Shown: piece after piece, positions 29,197 through 40,585 of the stretch
Numbering within the stretch: position 1 is the stretch's first letter
Layout of the letters: every line of letters starts with the position of its first letter
From: Reyranella sp.
GTDB lineage: Bacteria; Pseudomonadota; Alphaproteobacteria; Reyranellales; Reyranellaceae
DNA: 45,734 bases
Direction: 5' to 3'
Assembly: GCA_017990895.1 (NCBI GenBank)
Contig: JAGNNA010000002.1
Span: 1-45,734, forward strand
Translations under genes and position numbers: made by a program
Notes under the pieces: model-generated
Told to the model about the DNA's origin: nothing
The model's input: the letters and a program-made list of their open reading frames with translations, nothing else
Database searches by the model: none

Positions 29197-30162
29197 TCAG
29201 TTTATTGGAATCTTGGCGACCCGCACCAGTTCCTTGGTGTCGACGAGCTCGCGAGCGACATAGCCATCGAATGCAGTGGGTGACATCGGAGCCGGTTCGG
29301 CCCCAACTGCGGCGAGCTTCACCATCATGTCAGGCGACTCGAGCGCCTTCACCAGCGGCTTGTTGAGCGCGTCCACAATGGCGTTTGGCGTGCCGGCCGG
29401 GGCGAACATGCCTATCCACGGCTCATAGGAAGAGTTGGCGATCCCCACCTCAACCGTCGTCGGCACGTCCGGAAGCATCCGCGAGCGCTTTGCGGTGCTC
29501 GTCGCCAACGCCACGAGCTTTCCCTCCTTGATCGGGCTCAGAGTGTTGCCAATCGAGATGAAGGCAAAGTCGACGCGTCCTGCCATCACATCGGTCAAAG
29601 CCTCAGGGGTGCCGCGGTAGGGAACGTGCACACCCTCGAAGCCGGCCATTGCCCGGAACTTCTCCGATCCCATATGAAGGGCACTTCCGACTCCGCTCGA
29701 CGCATAAGTGATCTGGCCGGCCTTCGCCTTGGCCAGAGCCAGCAGGTCCTTGACCGACCAAATGTTGCCAGATGGCGCCACAACAAGGATCAGCGGCAGT
29801 GTCGCCAGCATCGTGATGCCGCGAAACTCCTTTGCGGTATCGTACGGCAGGCTACCGTAGAGTGCTGGATTGGCAGTGTGGGCCGACGATACGACCAGCA
29901 GTGTGTAGCCGTCGGGCGGTGCCTTGGCGACCACAGCCGAGCCGAGCGAACCTCCGGCGCCCGGCCGATTATCGACCAGGAAAGGTTGCGAAAGCGCTTC
30001 CCTCAGGCTCTCGGCTGCGAGGCGTGCCACGACGTCAGTGGCACTGCCCGCCGAGATTGGCACCACGACCTTCACTGGCCGCGACGGGTAGTCATTGGCA
30101 CTTGCGGCCTTGGACACCAGGCCGGCCGTGAGCGCGAGGGAGAGGGTACGCCGGCGCATCAT
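29197..30162 (-). CDS. Bug-family solute receptor (TctC-like), selenoprotein operon
   Basis: 321 aa. Signal MMRRRTLSLALTAGLVSKAA cleaved near SAND, then YPSRPVKVVVPISAGSATDV, LVDNRPGAGGSLGS, PYRGTPEALTDVMAGRVDF and the usual C-terminal region. Periplasmic carboxylate-type receptor; ligand unknown. Its ATG overlaps the TGA of the dioxygenase gene (ATGA), so it is the last gene of the operon that includes the UGSC selenoprotein, CoA-transferase and dioxygenase, and could capture the compound they degrade. No TctAB permease is nearby. Confidence 0.93.
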   Translation of the reverse strand: MMRRRTLSLALTAGLVSKAASANDYPSRPVKVVVPISAGSATDVVARLAAESLREALSQPFLVDNRPGAGGSLGSAVVAKAPPDGYTLLVVSSAHTANPALYGSLPYDTAKEFRGITMLATLPLILVVAPSGNIWSVKDLLALAKAKAGQITYASSGVGSALHMGSEKFRAMAGFEGVHVPYRGTPEALTDVMAGRVDFAFISIGNTLSPIKEGKLVALATSTAKRSRMLPDVPTTVEVGIANSSYEPWIGMFAPAGTPNAIVDALNKPLVKALESPDMMVKLAAVGAEPAPMSPTAFDGYVARELVDTKELVRVAKIPIN

Positions 30163-31175
30163 GACTGCACCGCCGGAACGCCACCGCGCGAGCCATTGTT
30201 GAAGCGATCGCCCATGCCCGGCGCAAGTGGGCGCCCCTCGTGCAAGTTGAGCCATAGGCGCAACAGGAGCCGCTTTTCCTCTGGCCGATCGCCATCCCTG
30301 AATGCTGTACGCGTGTGGATCACGGTCCAATTATTGAGGAACTGAATGTCGCCTGGGCGGAAGTCCATGCCGAGGCAGAGATCGGGGCTGACGGCGAGTT
30401 CCTCGACACAACGGATCGCTGCCCACTCGGCGTCCGTCAGCGGTCGTCCCTGCTTCTCGCGCGCCGTCCGGCTCGACTTGGAGTTCAGGCAGCAGCTAAG
30501 CCTGCCTTCGAACAAGCTGTAGACAGGGATGTCGGGGGTCGTTTCGTCGAGGCGGCGCTCGGTACCCTCGCCTCGCGTGTCGTGGGGAAATCCACGGTGC
30601 AGGATGGGCAAGTGCTCCGGATGGTCCCGGACGATGCGCTGGTAGATCGAAATCGCACTGGCGATCATGCTTCGCCCGCCTTCCGGCGACTTGCGCACGC
30701 AGAGCAACCCCACCACATCGCTGGGATCATTATGAGGGTTGGCCGCGGCCGCCGTCGTGTAGAGGCGCGTATTGATGTCCTCGTAGTCGTCGCCCTGGTC
30801 GGCGACATGGGTCATTAGATCGCCACGCTTGTTCTGGTAGACTGGCGCGCCCATGTGCACGCCGATGCCCCAGTAAATCGCCTTGATCGTGTCGAGGTCG
30901 TAGCGGTCGACGGGGATTCCTCGCAACAGGAAGAAGCCGCAACCGTACTCGAGCTGACGGGCCTGCTGGGCCAACCGCTGACCGAACGTCGGGATAGGGA
31001 AATCCCCCGCCGAGTACCCAGGGGGTGCAAGGCCGCGAGACCGCACGGCCTTCACTGCCTCGTCGAGTTCACGCAGGTCGGACGGCGTCAGTTCGTAGAG
31101 CCATTGATCGGCCGACCGATGGTCTTCGGCTTTCCAGGCGAACCGATCAGTTTGGTTGTGCAGCACGGTATCCAT
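30159..31175 (-). CDS. TauD/TfdA-family dioxygenase, selenoprotein operon
   Basis: 338 aa. Iron ligands His148-x-Asp150 (NPHNDPSD) and His287 (WTVIHTRTAF), with Arg306 as likely 2-oxoglutarate contact (LLLRLWLN). The longer N terminus and GEGTERRLDETT-type insert place it with the TauD-like enzymes related to gamma-butyrobetaine/asparagine oxygenases rather than with TfdA itself. ATG 31175 follows GGAGG. 30 bp after the CoA-transferase gene and overlapping the Bug receptor gene by 4 bp. Fe(II)/2-oxoglutarate-dependent hydroxylation of an unknown small molecule. Confidence 0.9.
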   Translation of the reverse strand: MDTVLHNQTDRFAWKAEDHRSADQWLYELTPSDLRELDEAVKAVRSRGLAPPGYSAGDFPIPTFGQRLAQQARQLEYGCGFFLLRGIPVDRYDLDTIKAIYWGIGVHMGAPVYQNKRGDLMTHVADQGDDYEDINTRLYTTAAAANPHNDPSDVVGLLCVRKSPEGGRSMIASAISIYQRIVRDHPEHLPILHRGFPHDTRGEGTERRLDETTPDIPVYSLFEGRLSCCLNSKSSRTAREKQGRPLTDAEWAAIRCVEELAVSPDLCLGMDFRPGDIQFLNNWTVIHTRTAFRDGDRPEEKRLLLRLWLNLHEGRPLAPGMGDRFNNGSRGGVPAVQS

Positions 31176-32452: not shown

Positions 32453-32992
32453 CTAACGACGGACCAGGAGACGCTTGACCTGCTCGGCCGCCTGACGGGC
32501 TCGATGACGGACCTCGTCATCGGTACAACTCGACAGGGGATGATCGACGACGACCGGCTCGAGACCGGTCATGCCGAGAGCGGCTCGTTGCGTGACGCAC
32601 TCGGTGACGAATTCCCGCGTGACGATGACCGCCGACGGGGTACCCAGGCTTTCCAATTCAATGCCGTCGTGCACACTGCACGATGTACAGGACCCTCAAT
32701 CGCCTATGGCTGTAATGACCACATCGCTGGATGCTGCGATCTGCGCAATCATTTCCGGGTCGGCCGTGTAGGAGAAGCCGCGCTTCACGAAGGTATTGAC
32801 CTGCGAGAAGGCAAACTCCTCGTTCAGGATATCGGCCGTGTAGGTGAGCAGCTTGCCGGCCTTCATCTTCGCATTGTCGAGAACGCCCAGGCGCAGCCCC
32901 CTCAGGTCGGCAACCCGGGGAGCCAGCGGCCGCGCTTCGGCCTGGACGATACCGCGGGGGTCGTAGCCGTAGAGGGGGATGCTGTAGGACAT
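32453..32992 (-). CDS. UGSC-family selenoprotein; in-frame TGA read as selenocysteine (residue 99)
   Basis: 179 codons from ATG 32992 (AAGGAG 7 nt upstream) to the stop at 32453, interrupted only by TGA at 32698-32696. The reading is VVITAIGD-U-GSCTSCSVHDG: Sec99 in the U-G-S-C motif that names this family, giving a U-x2-C (Sec99/Cys102) and an overlapping C-x2-C (Cys102/Cys105). Both sides are well conserved in character: MSYSIPLYGYDPRGIVQ and NAKMKAGKLL before, ELESLGTPSAVIVTREF and HPLSSCTDDEV after. Cytoplasmic, no signal. A hairpin fitting a bacterial SECIS follows the TGA. Standard callers would give two pieces (stop at 32696, or a start at 32674) or none. Function unknown; a redox or reductive role is inferred from the motif, which recalls Sec motifs in the glycine/betaine reductase B component. 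The selA, selB and selC genes are not in the window. Confidence 0.85.
32667..32683 (-). promoter_or_regulatory. Candidate bacterial SECIS hairpin
   Basis: In the mRNA, 12 nt after the UGA, UCGUGCA-GUG-UGCACGA forms a perfect 7-bp stem with a three-base GUG loop; the loop begins 19 nt after the UGA. Bacterial SECIS elements are short stem-loops just inside the coding region with G (often GU) in the apical loop at about this distance. It overlaps codons for SCSVHD. SelB binding is inferred. Confidence 0.7.
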
Positions 32993-33021: not shown

Positions 33022-34140
33022 TCAGAGGAAGCAGGTGCCGTCGATGCAGACCGGGCCGCCGTTCGGCACGGCGCCATCGATCGAGCGGAGAACCGGGCTG
33101 TTGTAATGCCCCCAGCCCGGAATGAACGACGAGAAGCGGCCGGCGGTCCCACCGATGACGAAAAGGTGGATATTGTCGGGCGACGGAACGATCGGAATGT
33201 CGGAATCCAGATCGCGGCGATACCAGCGCGGCAGGTGGCGATTGTAGGCCTTGCCATACTTGTGATTGTGGACGATGCGGCCAAACTTGTTTGTCGCGTA
33301 CATTTGCAGGTAGCAACGCACGTCGTGACGGGTCCAGCCATGCTTGGCGATCGCCTGTGCGTGCTCTGGCGACAGGGCCACGGTACAGTGGCCACTGGCA
33401 CGGGCGTTGTTGTGCACGACGGTCGTCATTGACGAGATGACGTCGTCGAGAATGCCCTCCGGGTCATTCGGCAGGGGGCTGTTGATGTTGTGGTTCGACT
33501 CCGCGCCGATCGCAAAGACCGTCGAGTCCTGCATTCGGTACCCCTTCTCCACATGATACGGAGCCCAGGGGCTGTCTTCCTCGTTCTCGGCAACGCAATA
33601 GCTGTACTTGGCCGGCGTGCCCTGTGTGCTCTTGTCCAGCACCCCAGGCAATGCGCCGCCCACGTTGAGAAGCATCAGTCGAATTGCCCGGCCGATGGTC
33701 GCGTTGGCGCGGTTGCCGGGAGCGAATGCGCCGTGTCCGGCGTTCATCCCGATCTCCTTCCGGACCGGCCCGTTGACCACAACCAGGGGGGCAATGACAT
33801 GTGTCGTTGCCTGGATGGCATTGAGGTTGAAGTGGGGTTCGCACATGGCCCGCATGGCCGCCCGGAGCACCGGAGCGTACAGGGGCAGGCAGCCGGCCAT
33901 CACGGCATTCACCGCGAGCACGCGGCGCGTCAGGTTTCCCCAGCGCGGCGGCACCCTTGCCTCCAGGAAATCGCCGTCGCCGCCCAGGGCCTCGACCATT
34001 GCCTCGACCTTTTCAGGGGTCGGGGGCACCACCGGCAGTCCGTCCGTATACCCGTTGGCGAAGTACCATTCCTGCGGGTCAACGCCATCCAGCGGGATCA
34101 TGTCCCCGCCGACCCGGTCTTGCAGCGCAGTTGACGCCAT
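33022..34140 (-). CDS. Conserved protein of unknown function, partner of the UGSC selenoprotein
   Basis: 372 aa from ATG 34140 (GAGG 8 nt upstream; GTG 34167 and ATG 34101 are alternatives). Cytoplasmic, no signal or membrane segment. Distinct stretches: ANGYTDGLPVVPPTPEKV near the start, GNRANATIGRAIRLMLLNVG in the middle, many His and Asn residues (HNHKYGKAYNRHLPRWYRRD), and a Gly-rich GGTAGRFSSFIPGWGHYNSP before the end. The last residues, PVCIDGTCFL, hold a C-x4-C pair (Cys365/Cys370) that could be redox-active or bind metal. 29 bp upstream of the selenoprotein gene on the same strand, so the two are almost certainly co-expressed. I do not recognise a characterised family. Confidence 0.85.
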   Translation of the reverse strand: MASTALQDRVGGDMIPLDGVDPQEWYFANGYTDGLPVVPPTPEKVEAMVEALGGDGDFLEARVPPRWGNLTRRVLAVNAVMAGCLPLYAPVLRAAMRAMCEPHFNLNAIQATTHVIAPLVVVNGPVRKEIGMNAGHGAFAPGNRANATIGRAIRLMLLNVGGALPGVLDKSTQGTPAKYSYCVAENEEDSPWAPYHVEKGYRMQDSTVFAIGAESNHNINSPLPNDPEGILDDVISSMTTVVHNNARASGHCTVALSPEHAQAIAKHGWTRHDVRCYLQMYATNKFGRIVHNHKYGKAYNRHLPRWYRRDLDSDIPIVPSPDNIHLFVIGGTAGRFSSFIPGWGHYNSPVLRSIDGAVPNGGPVCIDGTCFL

Positions 34141-34229: not shown

Positions 34230-34967
34230 TCAACTACTGACATTCTCACGAAACAGATCGATCGCTTGCCTGAACAACTCGAGGCGATAGTGGAGGTCCG
34301 CTGTAACGATCGGCGTGCCCTCCCAGGCAAAATAGGTGCGCCGCACGACGACCGTCGGATGACCGGGGGGAATACCGAGATGCTGCGCAGCCGGCAACGA
34401 CGCCTGACCGCCCTCGATCTCCTGGCGCACGCGATAGGCTCGAATCCGGCGCGCCTTCTCGATCTGGACAATCAGTGGTTCGAGACCGATGTCCCGACGC
34501 GACAACGCCTTGCCGTCCTCGAGACGCATGGCATTGACCGAGTAGAAGGCACGCTCGCCGGGCTCTCCCCGGGAGACCCTTTCGATCACGAACAGCTGTC
34601 CGCCTCTCGCTATGCCGAACAGGGTGGCATAATCGGGAAACCGGCTTGCGCTCACGGCCTTTGCCGACAGGACGCGCGGCTGCTCGAGCAGATTGCGATC
34701 GATGAGGTCTTCGACCGAACGGATAGCCCACGGAGATCTTTCGCGCGGAACGGCGATGACGACAGTGCCCCGCCTTGGCCGGCGCTCGATCAGGCCGTCA
34801 CGCTCCAGTTGGAGAAGGGCAGAGCGCACGGCGTAACGCGACATGCCGAACTCTTCCATCAATTCGCCTTCGGTCGGAACCTTCAGGCTGTAGCGCCGGC
34901 GGGCGATGCGGTCGCGCAGGATGCGCGCCAGTTGGGTCCCGACGGACGCATTCCCGCTCTCTCTCAT
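34230..34967 (-). CDS. GntR-family transcriptional regulator, HutC type (UTRA domain)
   Basis: 245 aa. Winged helix at about 8-75 (LRDRIARRRYSLKVPTEGEL, FGMSRYAVRSALLQLERDGL, RRPRRGTVV), then a UTRA effector domain at about 90-240 with ERVSRGEPGERAFYSVNAM and VVVRRTYFAWEGTPIVTADL. Binds a small effector and releases DNA, usually as a local repressor. Directly upstream of, and in line with, the selenoprotein operon, with the palindrome at 34205 between them; it probably senses the compound taken up by the operon's Bug receptor. Promoter expected within 34968-35173, where I see no clear boxes. Confidence 0.92.
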   Translation of the reverse strand: MRESGNASVGTQLARILRDRIARRRYSLKVPTEGELMEEFGMSRYAVRSALLQLERDGLIERRPRRGTVVIAVPRERSPWAIRSVEDLIDRNLLEQPRVLSAKAVSASRFPDYATLFGIARGGQLFVIERVSRGEPGERAFYSVNAMRLEDGKALSRRDIGLEPLIVQIEKARRIRAYRVRQEIEGGQASLPAAQHLGIPPGHPTVVVRRTYFAWEGTPIVTADLHYRLELFRQAIDLFRENVSS

Positions 34968-35173: not shown

Positions 35174-37045
35174 CTAGGGTGGGTCAGCATACTCGAACAC
35201 ATACGGCTCCAGCGTAGCCTGCGCCTCGGTGCGCAGACGATGCCATTTTGCAGGACCGCCGTAATAGGCGAGGCTGCCGGGCTCGGCCTTGCCGTCGCCG
35301 TTGTAGTAGCTGAGGCAGTCGCGCAGCGGCGCAGTGAGGAGATCCGCTTCGCGACAATGCTGCGCATAGGCGTCTTCGGGCTCCCTTCTCACATCGACGA
35401 TGGTTGCTCCACGCTCCTTCATGGTCTGGAGCATCCAGACCACGTAGTCGGTGTGGCCTTCCAGGCCTCGCGTGAAGTTGAACTGACCGCCGCCGCCTTG
35501 CGGGCCCGACATGATGAAGAGGTTGGGGAATCCATGACTATGCAGGCCGAGGAAGGTGCGGACACCCTCCTCGCGCCACCTGTCGCGCAACGTATGGCCG
35601 TCGCGTCCGACGATCATGTTGAATGTCCCCGTCGCCATCCACTCGAAGCCGGTGGCGTAGATCAGGACGTCCAGTTCGTACTCGACACCGTCATGCACGA
35701 CGCCCCTGGGCGTGATCTTCCTCACGCCGAGGGGCGCGGTATCGACCAGGTGCACATGCGGCAGGTTGAAGCTCGGCAGGTACTCGTCGTGGAACGTCGG
35801 CCGCTTGCAGCCATAGGGATAATAGGGCTTCAGGGCCGCGGCGGTCCTGGGATCCTTGACGACGGCGTCCACGCGCGCCCGGATCTGCTCCATGATCCGG
35901 AAATTGGTATTGAGCTGCGCCTGGATCATTTCCTCCGGAGATAGCGGGCGCTCGTAGACCTTGCGCTCCTTCACCTGGGCGACACGTCCGGCGAGAAAGT
36001 CGTCATTGCCTTGCAGAGCGGTGCGGCCCGAGGAAATGGTGGCAAGACGCTCGCGCCGCGCCTTGGCCCAGCCCGGCTCCTTCGACCAGATGTCGATCTC
36101 CTCCTGCGTGGTGGCGCGCTGGTCGCGCACGTCGATGGTCGAGGGCGTACGCTGGAAGACGTAGAGCTCCTTGACCACCTTGGCGATCTCGGGAACGACC
36201 TGCACGGCCGTGGCGCCGGTGCCGATGATTCCGACGCGCTTGCCTTCGAGGTCGTAGGTGTAATCCCAGCGCGACGTGTGAAACGCCTTTCCCGCGAAGC
36301 TGTCCATGCCCTCGATACGGGCCAGCTTCGGCGTGGTCAGGATGCCGTTGGCGAGAACCACGTAACGCGCCCGCATGCGGTCGCCACGGTCCGTCTCGAT
36401 CGTCCAGCGGGCGCTGCTCTCGTCCCAGGTGGTTTTCTCGACCGTGGTATGGAACAGGCAGCGTTCGTAGAAGCCATGGCGCTCGGCCATTGTCTGGCAA
36501 TATTCTAGGATCTCGAACCCCGAAGCGAACTTCATACTGGGGTAGTAGCCCATCTCCTCCAGCAGGGGCAGGTACGAGTAGGATTCGACGTCGCACGCGA
36601 TGCCTGGGTAGCGGTTCCAGTACCACGTGCCTCCGACATCGCCCCCCTTCTCGCAGAAGCGCACGTCTGTGAAGCCCGCCGCCTTCAGCTTGTACCAGAG
36701 CACCAATGCGCCGAAGCCGGCCCCGATGACCAGGATTTCGCATTCGTCGCCGAGCGCGTCGCGCGGCACGGGCGGGGCCGAGTAGGCATCCTCGAGATAC
36801 TTCGCGAACTCGCCTTCCATGGCCATGTAGTCGGCCGCGCCTTGCCGCGCCTCCTTGTTGGCGCGGTACCTCGCCTGCTCCTCGGCGTTGAATTTCGCAC
36901 CCGGCGGCGGATCCGGAAGTGTCTTCAGCGCCAGATCGGCAACGGGCGAATAGCCCTTGCCGGCAATCTTCTCCGTCGCCTTCGCGGCACGCGTATTGAA
37001 TATTTTTCGCCCGGTTGCGGGGTCGATGCGTATCGATGTGGTCAT
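35174..37045 (-). CDS. Flavin-containing Baeyer-Villiger-type monooxygenase
   Basis: 623 aa. An N-terminal extension of about 100 residues as in the larger cyclohexanone/steroid monooxygenases, FAD Rossmann IGAGFGALVLW (about 107-117), GGDVGGTWYWNRYPG, the BVMO fingerprint FAGKAFHTSRWD (260-271), the NADPH Rossmann GIIGTGATAVQ (272-282) and the C-terminal YATGFEW (second ATG motif). Inserts oxygen into ketones to give esters or lactones with NADPH and O2. Start ATG 37045 is the first with family sequence; no strong ribosome site. 212 bp after the Bug receptor gene on the same strand, so it may be the tail of that operon or separately transcribed. Confidence 0.93.
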   Translation of the reverse strand: MTTSIRIDPATGRKIFNTRAAKATEKIAGKGYSPVADLALKTLPDPPPGAKFNAEEQARYRANKEARQGAADYMAMEGEFAKYLEDAYSAPPVPRDALGDECEILVIGAGFGALVLWYKLKAAGFTDVRFCEKGGDVGGTWYWNRYPGIACDVESYSYLPLLEEMGYYPSMKFASGFEILEYCQTMAERHGFYERCLFHTTVEKTTWDESSARWTIETDRGDRMRARYVVLANGILTTPKLARIEGMDSFAGKAFHTSRWDYTYDLEGKRVGIIGTGATAVQVVPEIAKVVKELYVFQRTPSTIDVRDQRATTQEEIDIWSKEPGWAKARRERLATISSGRTALQGNDDFLAGRVAQVKERKVYERPLSPEEMIQAQLNTNFRIMEQIRARVDAVVKDPRTAAALKPYYPYGCKRPTFHDEYLPSFNLPHVHLVDTAPLGVRKITPRGVVHDGVEYELDVLIYATGFEWMATGTFNMIVGRDGHTLRDRWREEGVRTFLGLHSHGFPNLFIMSGPQGGGGQFNFTRGLEGHTDYVVWMLQTMKERGATIVDVRREPEDAYAQHCREADLLTAPLRDCLSYYNGDGKAEPGSLAYYGGPAKWHRLRTEAQATLEPYVFEYADPP

Positions 37046-37257
37046 GGCTGCTGTTCTGCTTTGTTTGCAAAACCTGAACAGACCAACCAACCCCTGTCAA
37101 ATTTCAGGCGTCATGGCTGTTGTGACCTGCCTCGATTCTTCGAACCACCGCTCAAGCTGGAAAAACCGGCGTCTCCTGGTCACATGTCGCGCAGCGTCCC
37201 GGCCCCGGGCGGAAACGGGCGCTGCGTCGGTCCATCTCAGCTTCTCTGCGAACCCTG

Positions 37258-38235
37258 TCAGATCTTGATGGCGGCCCGGCGTATGATGTCGCCATAGAGG
37301 GCACGTTCGGCGACGATCCTGGCGCTGAAGTCGGCCGGTGCCAGATAGCTTCCGAAATGCTGCACGTTCGCAAGCTTGTCGACGACTTCCGGCGACTTGA
37401 GCGCATTGTCGATCGCCTTCGACAATGCGTCGACGACAGGCTGTGGCGTGGCCTTGATGGCCACGATGCCATACCATGAATCGCCGCCGGTCTTGCCGTA
37501 GCCCTGCTCGGCGAGGGTGGGCAGATCGGGCTTGCCAGGCCAGCGCTTGTCACCGATGACGGCCAGGCCTTTCAGCCGTCCGTCCGCGATCGGTGGCAGC
37601 GTGGACGGATCGAACTGCACCTGGATCTGACCCGCGAGAAGATCCTGGAGCGCCGGAGCGCTTCCCTTGTACGGCACATGCGTCATCTGGATACCGGCCT
37701 CGACGCTCAGCATCTCCGGAAGGATATGGAAGAGCGTCGCCTGGCCGGGTGAGCCGAAGTTCACCTTGCCGGGATTGGCCTTGCAGTAGGCAACGAACTC
37801 CCCGACGTTGTTCACTGGCAGGGACGGGTGGACGGCCATCCCCGTCCAGCCCGTCACGGTGCGGGCGACGGGGATGAAGTCCTTGTCGGCATCGTACGGT
37901 ACGGGCTGAAGGTGCTGCGTGATGCAGAGCATCCCCACCGTAGCGGCAAGGAACGTGTGGTTGTCGGGCGCCGTATTCTTGAACACCTCTGCGCCGATCA
38001 TGCCGCTCGCGCCGGCGCGATTCTCGAACAGCGCGGACTGGCCGAGGTCGGTCATGGCCTTCGCGAGCACGATGCGGGTGGTTACGTCTGTAGGGCCGCC
38101 CGCCGCATAGGGAATGATGATCTTCACCTGCTTCTCGGGCCACGCCTTCTGCGCGCGGGCGACTGCGGGCGCCAGGAGCGTTGCGGCGCTGGCCGCAATG
38201 AAGCCGCGGCGGCCGCGGGCCGTGCTGTCCGTCAT
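37258..38235 (-). CDS. Bug-family solute receptor (TctC-like), acyl-CoA dehydrogenase operon
   Basis: 325 aa. Twin-Arg-like signal (MTDSTARGRRGFIAASAAT, cleaved near ARAQ), then WPEKQVKIIIPYAAGGPTDV, LFENRAGASGMIGAEVF, VPYKGSAPALQDLLAGQIQV. Periplasmic carboxylate receptor, third of its kind in this window, also without TctAB. GAGGAGGG precedes ATG 38235. It follows the second dehydrogenase gene by 17 bp, so it is the last gene of that operon and may bind the acid they degrade. Confidence 0.93.
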   Translation of the reverse strand: MTDSTARGRRGFIAASAATLLAPAVARAQKAWPEKQVKIIIPYAAGGPTDVTTRIVLAKAMTDLGQSALFENRAGASGMIGAEVFKNTAPDNHTFLAATVGMLCITQHLQPVPYDADKDFIPVARTVTGWTGMAVHPSLPVNNVGEFVAYCKANPGKVNFGSPGQATLFHILPEMLSVEAGIQMTHVPYKGSAPALQDLLAGQIQVQFDPSTLPPIADGRLKGLAVIGDKRWPGKPDLPTLAEQGYGKTGGDSWYGIVAIKATPQPVVDALSKAIDNALKSPEVVDKLANVQHFGSYLAPADFSARIVAERALYGDIIRRAAIKI

Positions 38236-38252
38236 TGTTCCCTCCTCATGCT

Positions 38253-39383
38253 TCAGGCTGAAATGCGGTCCGCAAGGCGGCCGATGTGATGATCGGTGTC
38301 CCCGAACAGGATGCTGACGGAGAGCAGGCGCTTGTAATAGGCGCCGACCGAAAGGGCCTCGGTCATGCCGATGCCGCCGTGCATCTGAATCGCTTCCTGG
38401 CCGATCAGGCGCCCCGCCTCGTTCACGCGCACCTTGGCCGAGGATACGCCCTGCACCCGCTGTTCGGCCGAAGGCTCTTCCAGGACCAGCGTGCCGCCGA
38501 TGACCAGGGAGCGCGCTTCCTCCAGCGCGACGTGCATCTGAACCAGGCGGTGCTGCAGCACCTGGAAGGTGGCGAGGGGCTTGCCGAACTGTTTGCGGAT
38601 CTTCAGATACTCCGCCGTCGTCTCGACCAAGACCTCCATGCAGCCAAGCGCGTAGGCCGCGTCTGCCATGAGGGCCGCGTCGACAGTGGCTTCGATTGCA
38701 GGCAATGCCTCGCCCACGGCTCCGAGCAGAGCCTCCGGCCCGACCGTCACGCCGGTTAGTTTGACTTCGCCGGCGGGAAAGTCGTCCTGGGTGCGCGTGG
38801 GACGGATGTCCAGCCCCGTTGCGGCGCGGGGTATGAGGAACAGGCTGAGCCCGGAGCGGTCGCGCTGGCCGCCCGCCGTGCGTGCAGAGACGACCAGCCA
38901 CTCGGCGTTCGGCGCGTTCAGCACCACGGCCTTCGAGCCGTCGATACGCCACCCGTCGCCGTGTCTGGCGGCGCGTGTGGCCACGTCATGCAGGTCGAAG
39001 CGCCCCTGCGGCTCGGCCAGCGCTGCCGCCAGCTGGACCTCGCCGGCACTCAGTCGGGGCAGGATCTTCGCCGGGTCGTTGGTGCGGGCAAGAAGCCCGC
39101 CCGCCATCACCACGCTTGCAAGGTAGGGCTCGACCACGAGGCCACGACCGAGTTCCTCCATCAGGACCATGTGTTCCACAGGACCACTGCCGAGGCCGCC
39201 AAGGTCTTCGGGGATTGATATCCCCAGCCACCCCATGGCAGCGAATTCCTTCCAGAGCCCGGCTGAGAAGCCGCCGACGCTCTCGACGCTCCGGCGTCGC
39301 ATGGGCTGGTCGTAGCGATCCGTCACGAACCGCCGGGCGCTCTCCTGCAGCATCCGCTGCTCGTCGCTGAGATCGAAGTCCAT
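38253..39383 (-). CDS. Acyl-CoA dehydrogenase family protein (second of pair)
   Basis: 376 aa. N-terminal helical domain (DFDLSDEQRMLQESARRFV, GWLGISIPEDLGGLG), beta domain and C-terminal helices with RKQFGKPLATFQVLQHRL and QMHGGIGMTEALSVGAYYKR. The middle domain is less canonical than in its neighbour (no W-I-T/S flavin motif), as in the smaller partner of paired FadE-type dehydrogenases that form mixed complexes. Begins 8 bp after the stop of the first dehydrogenase gene. Introduces a double bond into an acyl-CoA with FAD. Confidence 0.9.
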   Translation of the reverse strand: MDFDLSDEQRMLQESARRFVTDRYDQPMRRRSVESVGGFSAGLWKEFAAMGWLGISIPEDLGGLGSGPVEHMVLMEELGRGLVVEPYLASVVMAGGLLARTNDPAKILPRLSAGEVQLAAALAEPQGRFDLHDVATRAARHGDGWRIDGSKAVVLNAPNAEWLVVSARTAGGQRDRSGLSLFLIPRAATGLDIRPTRTQDDFPAGEVKLTGVTVGPEALLGAVGEALPAIEATVDAALMADAAYALGCMEVLVETTAEYLKIRKQFGKPLATFQVLQHRLVQMHVALEEARSLVIGGTLVLEEPSAEQRVQGVSSAKVRVNEAGRLIGQEAIQMHGGIGMTEALSVGAYYKRLLSVSILFGDTDHHIGRLADRISA

Positions 39384-39391
39384 TTTCCGCC

Positions 39392-40585
39392 TCAACCCAG
39401 GAGATGCTTGGCCATGATGTTCTGCTGAATCTCGCTGCCGCCGCCGGCGATGGTAAAGGCGCGGCTGCGGAACCGCGCATTGGAGGCGCCGGGGGCATAG
39501 TCCGGCCCGATCGGCGGCGCGAGATCGTCGTTTGTGATGCCGTGCGCCTGGAAGGGAACGCCGTAGTAGCCGAGCGCATCGACCGTCGCCTGCAGGAGAT
39601 CCTGCAGCAACTCCGTGCCCTGCATCTTCAGCATGGTAACGGAAGGATCGAGCTTGCCGCCAGCATCCGCTTTGGCGATGAAGCGGAGGACGCTGAGATC
39701 GAGCGCGCGTACCCGCACCTCGTACTGCGCGAGCTTGCGGCGGAACCAGTCGTGCTCGATCAGGGGCTTGCCGTGCGCGAGCTCGCGACGGGCGATCTCC
39801 TTCAGCCGCTGCAGACGCTTCTTGTTGTCGCCGACGCGCGCAAGGAAGAGCCGCTCGTGTTCGAGCAGCGACTTCGCGACAGTCCACCCCTCGTTCTCCT
39901 TGTGAACCAGGTTGGCGATCGGGACGCGAACGTTCTCGAAGACGACCTGATTGAAGATATGCTGGCCGTTGATGGTCGGAATCGGCTGGATCGAAATCCC
40001 CCGCGAGGCCATGTCCACAAGCAGAAAGCTGATGCCCTGCTGCGGCTTGCCTTCCTTGCGGGTGCGTACGAGACAGAAAATGTGCGTCGCCCAGTGTGCC
40101 AGAGACGTCCACACCTTCGTCCCGTTCAGGATGTAGTAGTCGCCCTCGCGCCTCGCTTCGGTCTTGAGCGCTGCCAGATCCGATCCTGCGTCCGGCTCCG
40201 AATAGCCCTGGCACCACCAGTCCTTCACCTCGAGGATACCGGACAGGTAGCGGCGCTTCTGCGCCTCGGTCCCGTATTCGATCAGGATCGGCCCGATCAT
40301 GGCGATGTTGAAGATGTGCAGAGGCGGGCAATAGTTGAGGGCGCATTCCTCCTCGAAGATGTGCCTCTGCATCAGCGACCAGCCGGTACCGCCGTGCTCC
40401 TTTGGCCAGGAGGGGGCAAGCCAGCCCTTGCGCGCCAGGATCGAGTGCCAGCGGGCCATCTCGTCCTTCTCGGGCTCCCAGCCTTCCTCGTTGTGAACCT
40501 TGATGCCGGCGGGAAGTTCGTGCCGCACGAAGGCCCTCACCTCTTCACGAAAGGCGCGGTCCTCGGCCGTTTCGCGCATGTCCAT
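39392..40585 (-). CDS. Acyl-CoA dehydrogenase family protein (first of pair)
   Basis: 397 aa. Canonical layout: RAFVRHELP, GWLAPSWPKEHGGTGW, the flavin/substrate motif WWCQGYSEPDAGSDLAALKT, LNGTKVWTSLAHWATHIFCL, and C-terminal GGGSEIQQNIMAKHLLG. GGAGG precedes ATG 40585. First gene of the operon dehydrogenase - dehydrogenase - Bug receptor, divergent from the GntR regulator at 40662, with shared palindromic operators between them. Substrate probably a medium, branched or ring-bearing acyl-CoA; not deducible further. Confidence 0.92.
   Translation of the reverse strand: MDMRETAEDRAFREEVRAFVRHELPAGIKVHNEEGWEPEKDEMARWHSILARKGWLAPSWPKEHGGTGWSLMQRHIFEEECALNYCPPLHIFNIAMIGPILIEYGTEAQKRRYLSGILEVKDWWCQGYSEPDAGSDLAALKTEARREGDYYILNGTKVWTSLAHWATHIFCLVRTRKEGKPQQGISFLLVDMASRGISIQPIPTINGQHIFNQVVFENVRVPIANLVHKENEGWTVAKSLLEHERLFLARVGDNKKRLQRLKEIARRELAHGKPLIEHDWFRRKLAQYEVRVRALDLSVLRFIAKADAGGKLDPSVTMLKMQGTELLQDLLQATVDALGYYGVPFQAHGITNDDLAPPIGPDYAPGASNARFRSRAFTIAGGGSEIQQNIMAKHLLG

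Follow-up and report, generated by a model that had tools for sequence, protein, structure and literature searches.

The selenoprotein UGSC is encoded in a Reyranella sp. contig (JAGNNA010000002.1) next to a protein that we refer to as the partner. Computation shows that the two are paired across genomes, that UGSC is homologous to GrdB and PrdB of the glycine and D-proline reductases (Grd, Prd), and that a C-terminal tail of the partner and a thioredoxin-like (Trx-like) domain replace each other between clades. It is probable, in our judgement, that UGSC and the partner constitute a Grd/Prd-like two-component selenoreductase, which operates within catabolic operons and receives its electrons via a mobile dithiol tail of the partner.

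The partner gene and the adjacent UGSC selenoprotein

The window, i.e. the whole stretch of DNA that was analyzed (45,734 nucleotides), harbors the partner gene directly upstream of the UGSC gene, with an intergenic gap of 29 bp. The following features were located:

33022–34140, minus strand: partner gene, 372 aa, stop codon at 33022–33024; homologues detected
34167, minus strand: GTG, a possible alternative, longer start of the partner gene
33025–33054, minus strand: C-terminal tail PVCIDGTCFL (Cys365 codon 33046–33048, Cys370 codon 33031–33033)
33889–33891, minus strand: Cys84 codon of the partner, in the motif NAVMAGC
33595–33597, minus strand: Cys182 codon of the partner, in the motif YSYC
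32453–32992, minus strand: UGSC selenoprotein gene, 179 aa, above Pfam and NCBIfam cut-offs
32696–32698, minus strand: Sec codon TGA, codon 99, in GDUGSCTSC; selA and tRNA-Sec are in the same genome
32665–32685, minus strand: SECIS-like hairpin directly 3' of the TGA, conserved, showing no compensatory changes

Coordinates and translation agree with the sequence-only reading, which had described a 372-aa protein with two cysteines in its tail PVCIDGTCFL and a 29-bp gap to the next gene. In the translated C-terminus (...GPVCIDGTCFL) the cysteines form a C-x4-C pair at residues 365 and 370, the second one lying two residues from the end. The neighboring open reading frame scored 187.3 bits against PF24696 (cut-off 25) and 145.6 bits against NF041046 (cut-off 125), while the Reyranella genome yielded selA above its cut-off and a tRNA-Sec with 71.5 bits (cut-off 47). 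Judged from these model scores, the neighboring gene encodes a true UGSC selenoprotein. UGSC is among the commonest selenoprotein families of aquatic metagenomes, and a fusion of UGSC to a conserved domain termed 'Unknown_1' was reported in 2008 (PMC2398784). This domain may be the partner described here.

The sequence-only reading could not assign the partner to a known family, and database searches bore this out. Zero Pfam matches were obtained at E ≤ 1, the sole NCBIfam match was at chance level, and a Pfam search with 47 diverse relatives of the partner likewise returned nothing above chance. The closest relatives, with 80–92% identity, are encoded in Reyranella/Enhydrobacter-type assemblies. 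As far as sequence comparison goes, the partner is a protein family of its own. The partner profile was also compared by hhalign with the pyruvoyl subunits GrdE (0.3%) and PrdA (0.8%), and a relationship to either was dismissed. Since the partner has no sequence relation to GrdE/PrdA, a pyruvoyl-type mechanism is not transferable. A mutual relationship between the partner and UGSC was discarded as well (0.2%).

A structural model of the partner (pLDDT 83.7) had class I fumarase as its best PDB match in Foldseek (E 1.9e-4, probability 0.90), with a TM score of only 0.24 and an rmsd of 16 Å; hhalign gave 0.1% for the same comparison, and the partner is probably no fumarase. This top match, together with aconitase X, enolase and lyase neighbors at some loci, could be read as a sign of an enzyme without redox function, i.e. 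a lyase, isomerase or hydratase, whose Sec/Cys residue serves as nucleophile or in acid-base catalysis, the partner being folded like a fumarase. Such an enzyme seems very unlikely to us, given the TM score, rmsd and hhalign value of the fumarase match, and it would leave the supply of dithiols unexplained.

Partner and UGSC form one module

UGSC and the partner have identical distributions: among 240 genomes sampled from the class, both occur in the same 21, and among 398 sampled from the phylum, both occur in the same 5. Two of the five phylum positives were already part of the class sample; in each of the three newly found genomes the genes are adjacent. A partner on the same strand lies at most 150 bp away from 53 of the 57 UGSC genes, and both gene orders occur among these adjacent pairs (34 partner–UGSC, 19 UGSC–partner). 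Moreover, natural single-chain fusions of UGSC and partner exist, and in most of them the UGSC portion is interrupted by a TGA in frame. Because of the identical genome distribution, the constant adjacency and the natural fusions, UGSC and partner are taken to form one module. The partner is a near-obligate companion of UGSC, and the sequence-only reading, which made its case depend on the two genes being regular neighbors, withstands this check. Members of the family, some of them with Cys for Sec, also occur in Chloroflexota, Acidobacteriota, Actinomycetota, Bacillota and haloarchaea, and a genome may hold several paralogous pairs in different catabolic operons.

Individual loci deviate from the simple pair. 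At L091, L092, L096, L097 and L094 UGSC–partner, often fused, is accompanied by a second partner gene, and several of these loci also encode a TRAP transporter, an arylmalonate decarboxylase/maleate isomerase-like protein and a TrxR-like flavoprotein. An Acidobacteriota locus (L017, 3368–8992) contains three tandem UGSC–partner fusions in which neither Sec nor the motif Cys is preserved. The haloarchaeal plasmids L119, L133 and L135 carry Cys versions of the pair (DCGSCTSW or DCGSCSSW), and in L135 two partner genes flank UGSC. Genes similar to selA/selB were observed near the pair in L066, L067, L010 and L092, and a Paracoccus ferrooxidans plasmid (L137) also carries selB.

UGSC is remotely related to the selenoprotein B of Grd and Prd

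Sequences of GrdB/GrdF/GrdH and PrdB for profile comparisons were retrieved from plasmid records. The UGSC profile matched GrdF/GrdH/GrdB in hhalign with a probability of 91.4% (E 9e-7, 99 columns), and the alignment was in register at Sec (Sec/Sec), at the cysteines in positions +3 and +6 and at the HPL motif. The comparison with PrdB gave 60.4%. Column-shuffled controls reached at most 0.39% and unrelated families 0.2%. Consistently, for many UGSC relatives the NCBIfam models of GrdB/GrdF/PrdB/GrdH were the commonest matches after UGSC itself; these matches were weak, the best GrdB-type score being 19 bits (cut-off 602, TIGR01917) for a local rather than a full-length match. The UGSC protein of the window did not match the GrdB/PrdB NCBIfam models. 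PF07355 (GrdB) found no match in 58 genomes of the class and 349 of the phylum, in a search whose control was also without a match anywhere. On the strength of the profile alignment, UGSC and the Sec-bearing part of selenoprotein B (GrdB/PrdB) are remotely homologous.

One UGSC–partner fusion was modeled (pLDDT 91.2, pTM 0.92), and Rossmann/flavodoxin-like chains were among the matches listed for its UGSC domain. By the matches listed, the UGSC domain is predicted to be Rossmann/flavodoxin-like, which differs from earlier papers that called UGSC probably Trx-fold (PMC2398784, PMC13188914). That earlier assignment, the Sec and Cys motifs and the Trx/TrxR neighbors would be in line with an antioxidant function, in which the partner would be the regulatory or docking subunit of UGSC, itself a Trx-dependent peroxidase or disulfide reductase. 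However, this appears improbable in view of the Rossmann/flavodoxin-like folds among the matches listed, of the homology to GrdB/PrdB and of the paralogous pairs that a single genome places in different catabolic operons.

The C-terminal tail is exchanged for a Trx-like domain

Within the clade of the window protein (support 100), the C-x4-C pair is found in 12 of 12 proteins; one of them comes from Roseovarius and is paired with a UGSC that carries Cys at the Sec position. In a second clade, also of 12 proteins, the C-terminus reads C-x2-C. Members of a third clade are devoid of tail cysteines and possess an N-terminal extension with CxTC and, further on, VPT. The assignment of this extension as a Trx-like domain leans mainly on the motif, because redoxin/thioredoxin-like Pfam matches were below cut-off in 3 of 7 cases and absent in the other 4. 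Among 40 distinct Sec-type pairs with the order partner-then-UGSC, 23 have the tail, 16 have the Trx-like domain and none has both; the single pair with neither is truncated by the contig end, and its sister has the Trx-like domain. Thus, tail and Trx-like domain are exchanged for one another between clades, by few independent events, since the tree shows about three clades rather than 40 exchanges.

The other check named in the sequence-only reading, conservation of the C-terminal Cys pair, does not refute that reading either, but it sets a limit: the pair is invariant in its own clade and is not family-wide, as the C-x2-C and Trx-like clades demonstrate. The same limit applies to the view that the tail is a mobile redox tail, which for its part gains from the swap with a Trx-like domain and from trxB/trxA neighbors. 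In the AlphaFold model Cys365 and Cys370 have pLDDT values of 53 and 45, and values this low are consistent with a mobile tail. Taken as sequence evidence, the patterns support a tail that acts as a dithiol relay, whose target may be Sec99 or cysteines of the partner itself.

Cys84 and Cys182 of the partner are better conserved than the tail cysteines, being kept in 38 of 38 stand-alone partners, and since the tail Cys pair is not family-wide, the tail may serve C84/C182 and not Sec99 directly. Taken further, the tail might spare Sec99 and reduce a C84–C182 disulfide of the partner itself, as in ribonucleotide reductase, with a separate reductant for the Sec of UGSC. The presence of both cysteines in every stand-alone partner speaks for this, as does the tail pattern shared with NrdA, whose tail cysteines are redox active (PMC4728125). 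Most fusion forms, however, are without C84 and C182, and several of these retain Sec; we grant this alternative a minor, though real, chance.

Thioredoxin-system genes were found next to a number of pairs. A TrxR-like flavoprotein (CxxCDG) is encoded within 5 kb at 10 of 28 loci that have neither tail nor Trx-like domain, compared with 1 of 37 other loci (Fisher p 0.0006, related loci being counted as independent), while at many loci without tail or Trx-like domain no Trx partner was visible either. An Arthrobacter plasmid carries trxB-trxA-partner-UGSC; this partner has no tail and has its own trxA, and the tree places it in the C-x2-C clade. A Roseovarius plasmid has the order partner-UGSC-trxB, and on a Variovorax plasmid trxB is located near the pair. 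The Reyranella genome itself contains further pairs, namely one of the C-x2-C type (C443), one with the Trx-like domain (C371) and a Sec-type UGSC-then-partner pair with a TrxR-like flavoprotein (CANCDG) directly upstream (C348; L005, 1–1884).

The pair is embedded in catabolic operons

The pair in the window is flanked by the following genes:

34230–34967, minus strand: GntR/UTRA regulator, directly upstream; common to L007, L008, L011, L012 and L015
31206–32438, minus strand: CaiB/BaiF family III CoA-transferase, which in the window clade consistently follows UGSC
30159–31175, minus strand: TauD/TfdA-family dioxygenase, downstream; common to L008 and L015
29197–30180, minus strand: TctC-type solute-binding protein, in the same place in L008 and L015, upstream in L010

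The operon order in the window is hence GntR regulator, partner, UGSC, family III CoA-transferase, TauD-family dioxygenase and TctC binding protein. In the ten closest relatives with enough flanking sequence, the gene after UGSC likewise encodes this CoA-transferase, and the longer operon was found again in two loci (L008 and L015). The neighborhoods sampled are catabolic, with CoA-transferases, TauD, TctC and TRAP proteins, acyl-CoA dehydrogenases and hydrolases; the operon content points to no particular substrate or bond. Further upstream, at 35174–40585, the window encodes a flavin monooxygenase, a second TctC protein and two acyl-CoA dehydrogenases, none of which accompanies the pair in those close relatives that were inspected. 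The neighbors at L120, L124, L122, L133 and L134 include aconitase X with DUF126, enolase, phosphosulfolactate synthase, PEP mutase family and AroA-like proteins, which perhaps hint at the substrate class.

The sequence-only reading had envisaged a two-component system with UGSC, either a reductase or one for the handling of metals or organometals. The two-component part is upheld by the module and by the dithiol-like evolution of the tail, and metal handling found no support in the neighborhoods sampled. Sec/Cys sites do bind soft metals, and other selenoprotein families have links to mercury and arsenic (PMC13188914), but the families listed for the sampled neighborhoods comprise transporters and catabolic enzymes and not one metal-resistance family, which makes metal or organometal handling by UGSC and its partner hardly credible.

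Proposed mechanism

In the selenoreductase that we favor, UGSC would supply the selenol, with Sec99 and the cysteines at +3 and +6 carried on a Rossmann-like domain. The partner would stand in for the pyruvoyl subunit of the Grd/Prd enzymes; it probably holds the substrate, possibly by way of its conserved residues C84, C182, R151, N159, E185 and K178, and would also feed electrons in. In the window clade electrons would pass from the thioredoxin pool to the mobile C-x4-C tail, a relay like that of ribonucleotide reductase, whereas in other clades a built-in Trx-like domain, or neighboring TrxA/TrxB or TrxR-like proteins, would be the electron source. By analogy with Grd and Prd, the selenol would reductively attack a small catabolic substrate at a C–X bond and end as a selenenylsulfide, to be reset by a dithiol of the tail, the Trx-like domain or TrxA/TrxB. 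The direction of electron flow, the composition of the active site and the cleavage of a C–X bond are what we infer from these comparisons.

A broader interpretation, which we put forward tentatively as quite possible, is that UGSC–partner pairs are widespread selenium-dependent reductases akin to the Stickland glycine and proline reductases, either descended from them or sharing a common ancestor. They would have acquired a new subunit in place of the pyruvoyl one and a swappable electron input (C-terminal dithiol tail, built-in Trx-like domain or dedicated TrxA/TrxB), with a substrate particular to each paralogue. In the literature examined, UGSC was without a known partner, fold relative or function. 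The obligate partner, the link to Grd/Prd and the exchange of tail and Trx-like domain are new with respect to that literature, although Haft 2023/2025 may predate us as regards the partner, and the three together make UGSC a testable enzyme.

Comparison with known systems

Selenium chemistry of the Grd/Prd type is classed as anaerobic. UGSC–partner pairs, in contrast, occur in Pseudomonadota, Arthrobacter and haloarchaea besides anaerobes, and if the proposed reading is true, this chemistry extends to organisms from other settings. Protein B of Grd and Prd resembles UGSC in the positions of Sec, Cys+3, Cys+6 (Grd) and HPL, whereas GrdB has an N-terminal part that UGSC lacks. Grd and Prd use dithiols (PMC10298544), and like them UGSC with its partner would be a dithiol-driven two-subunit selenoenzyme, as is here proposed. 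Class I fumarase is the best PDB match of the partner model (E 1.9e-4), at a TM score of 0.24 and with no profile similarity. In the tail, the partner (CIDGTCFL) shares with NrdA, the alpha subunit of E. coli class Ia ribonucleotide reductase (CESGACKI), the pattern C-x2-G-x-C-x2-COOH; the redox-active tail of NrdA is disordered in crystals (PMC4728125). This likeness is confined to the tail, and for the remainder of the two proteins no homology is claimed.
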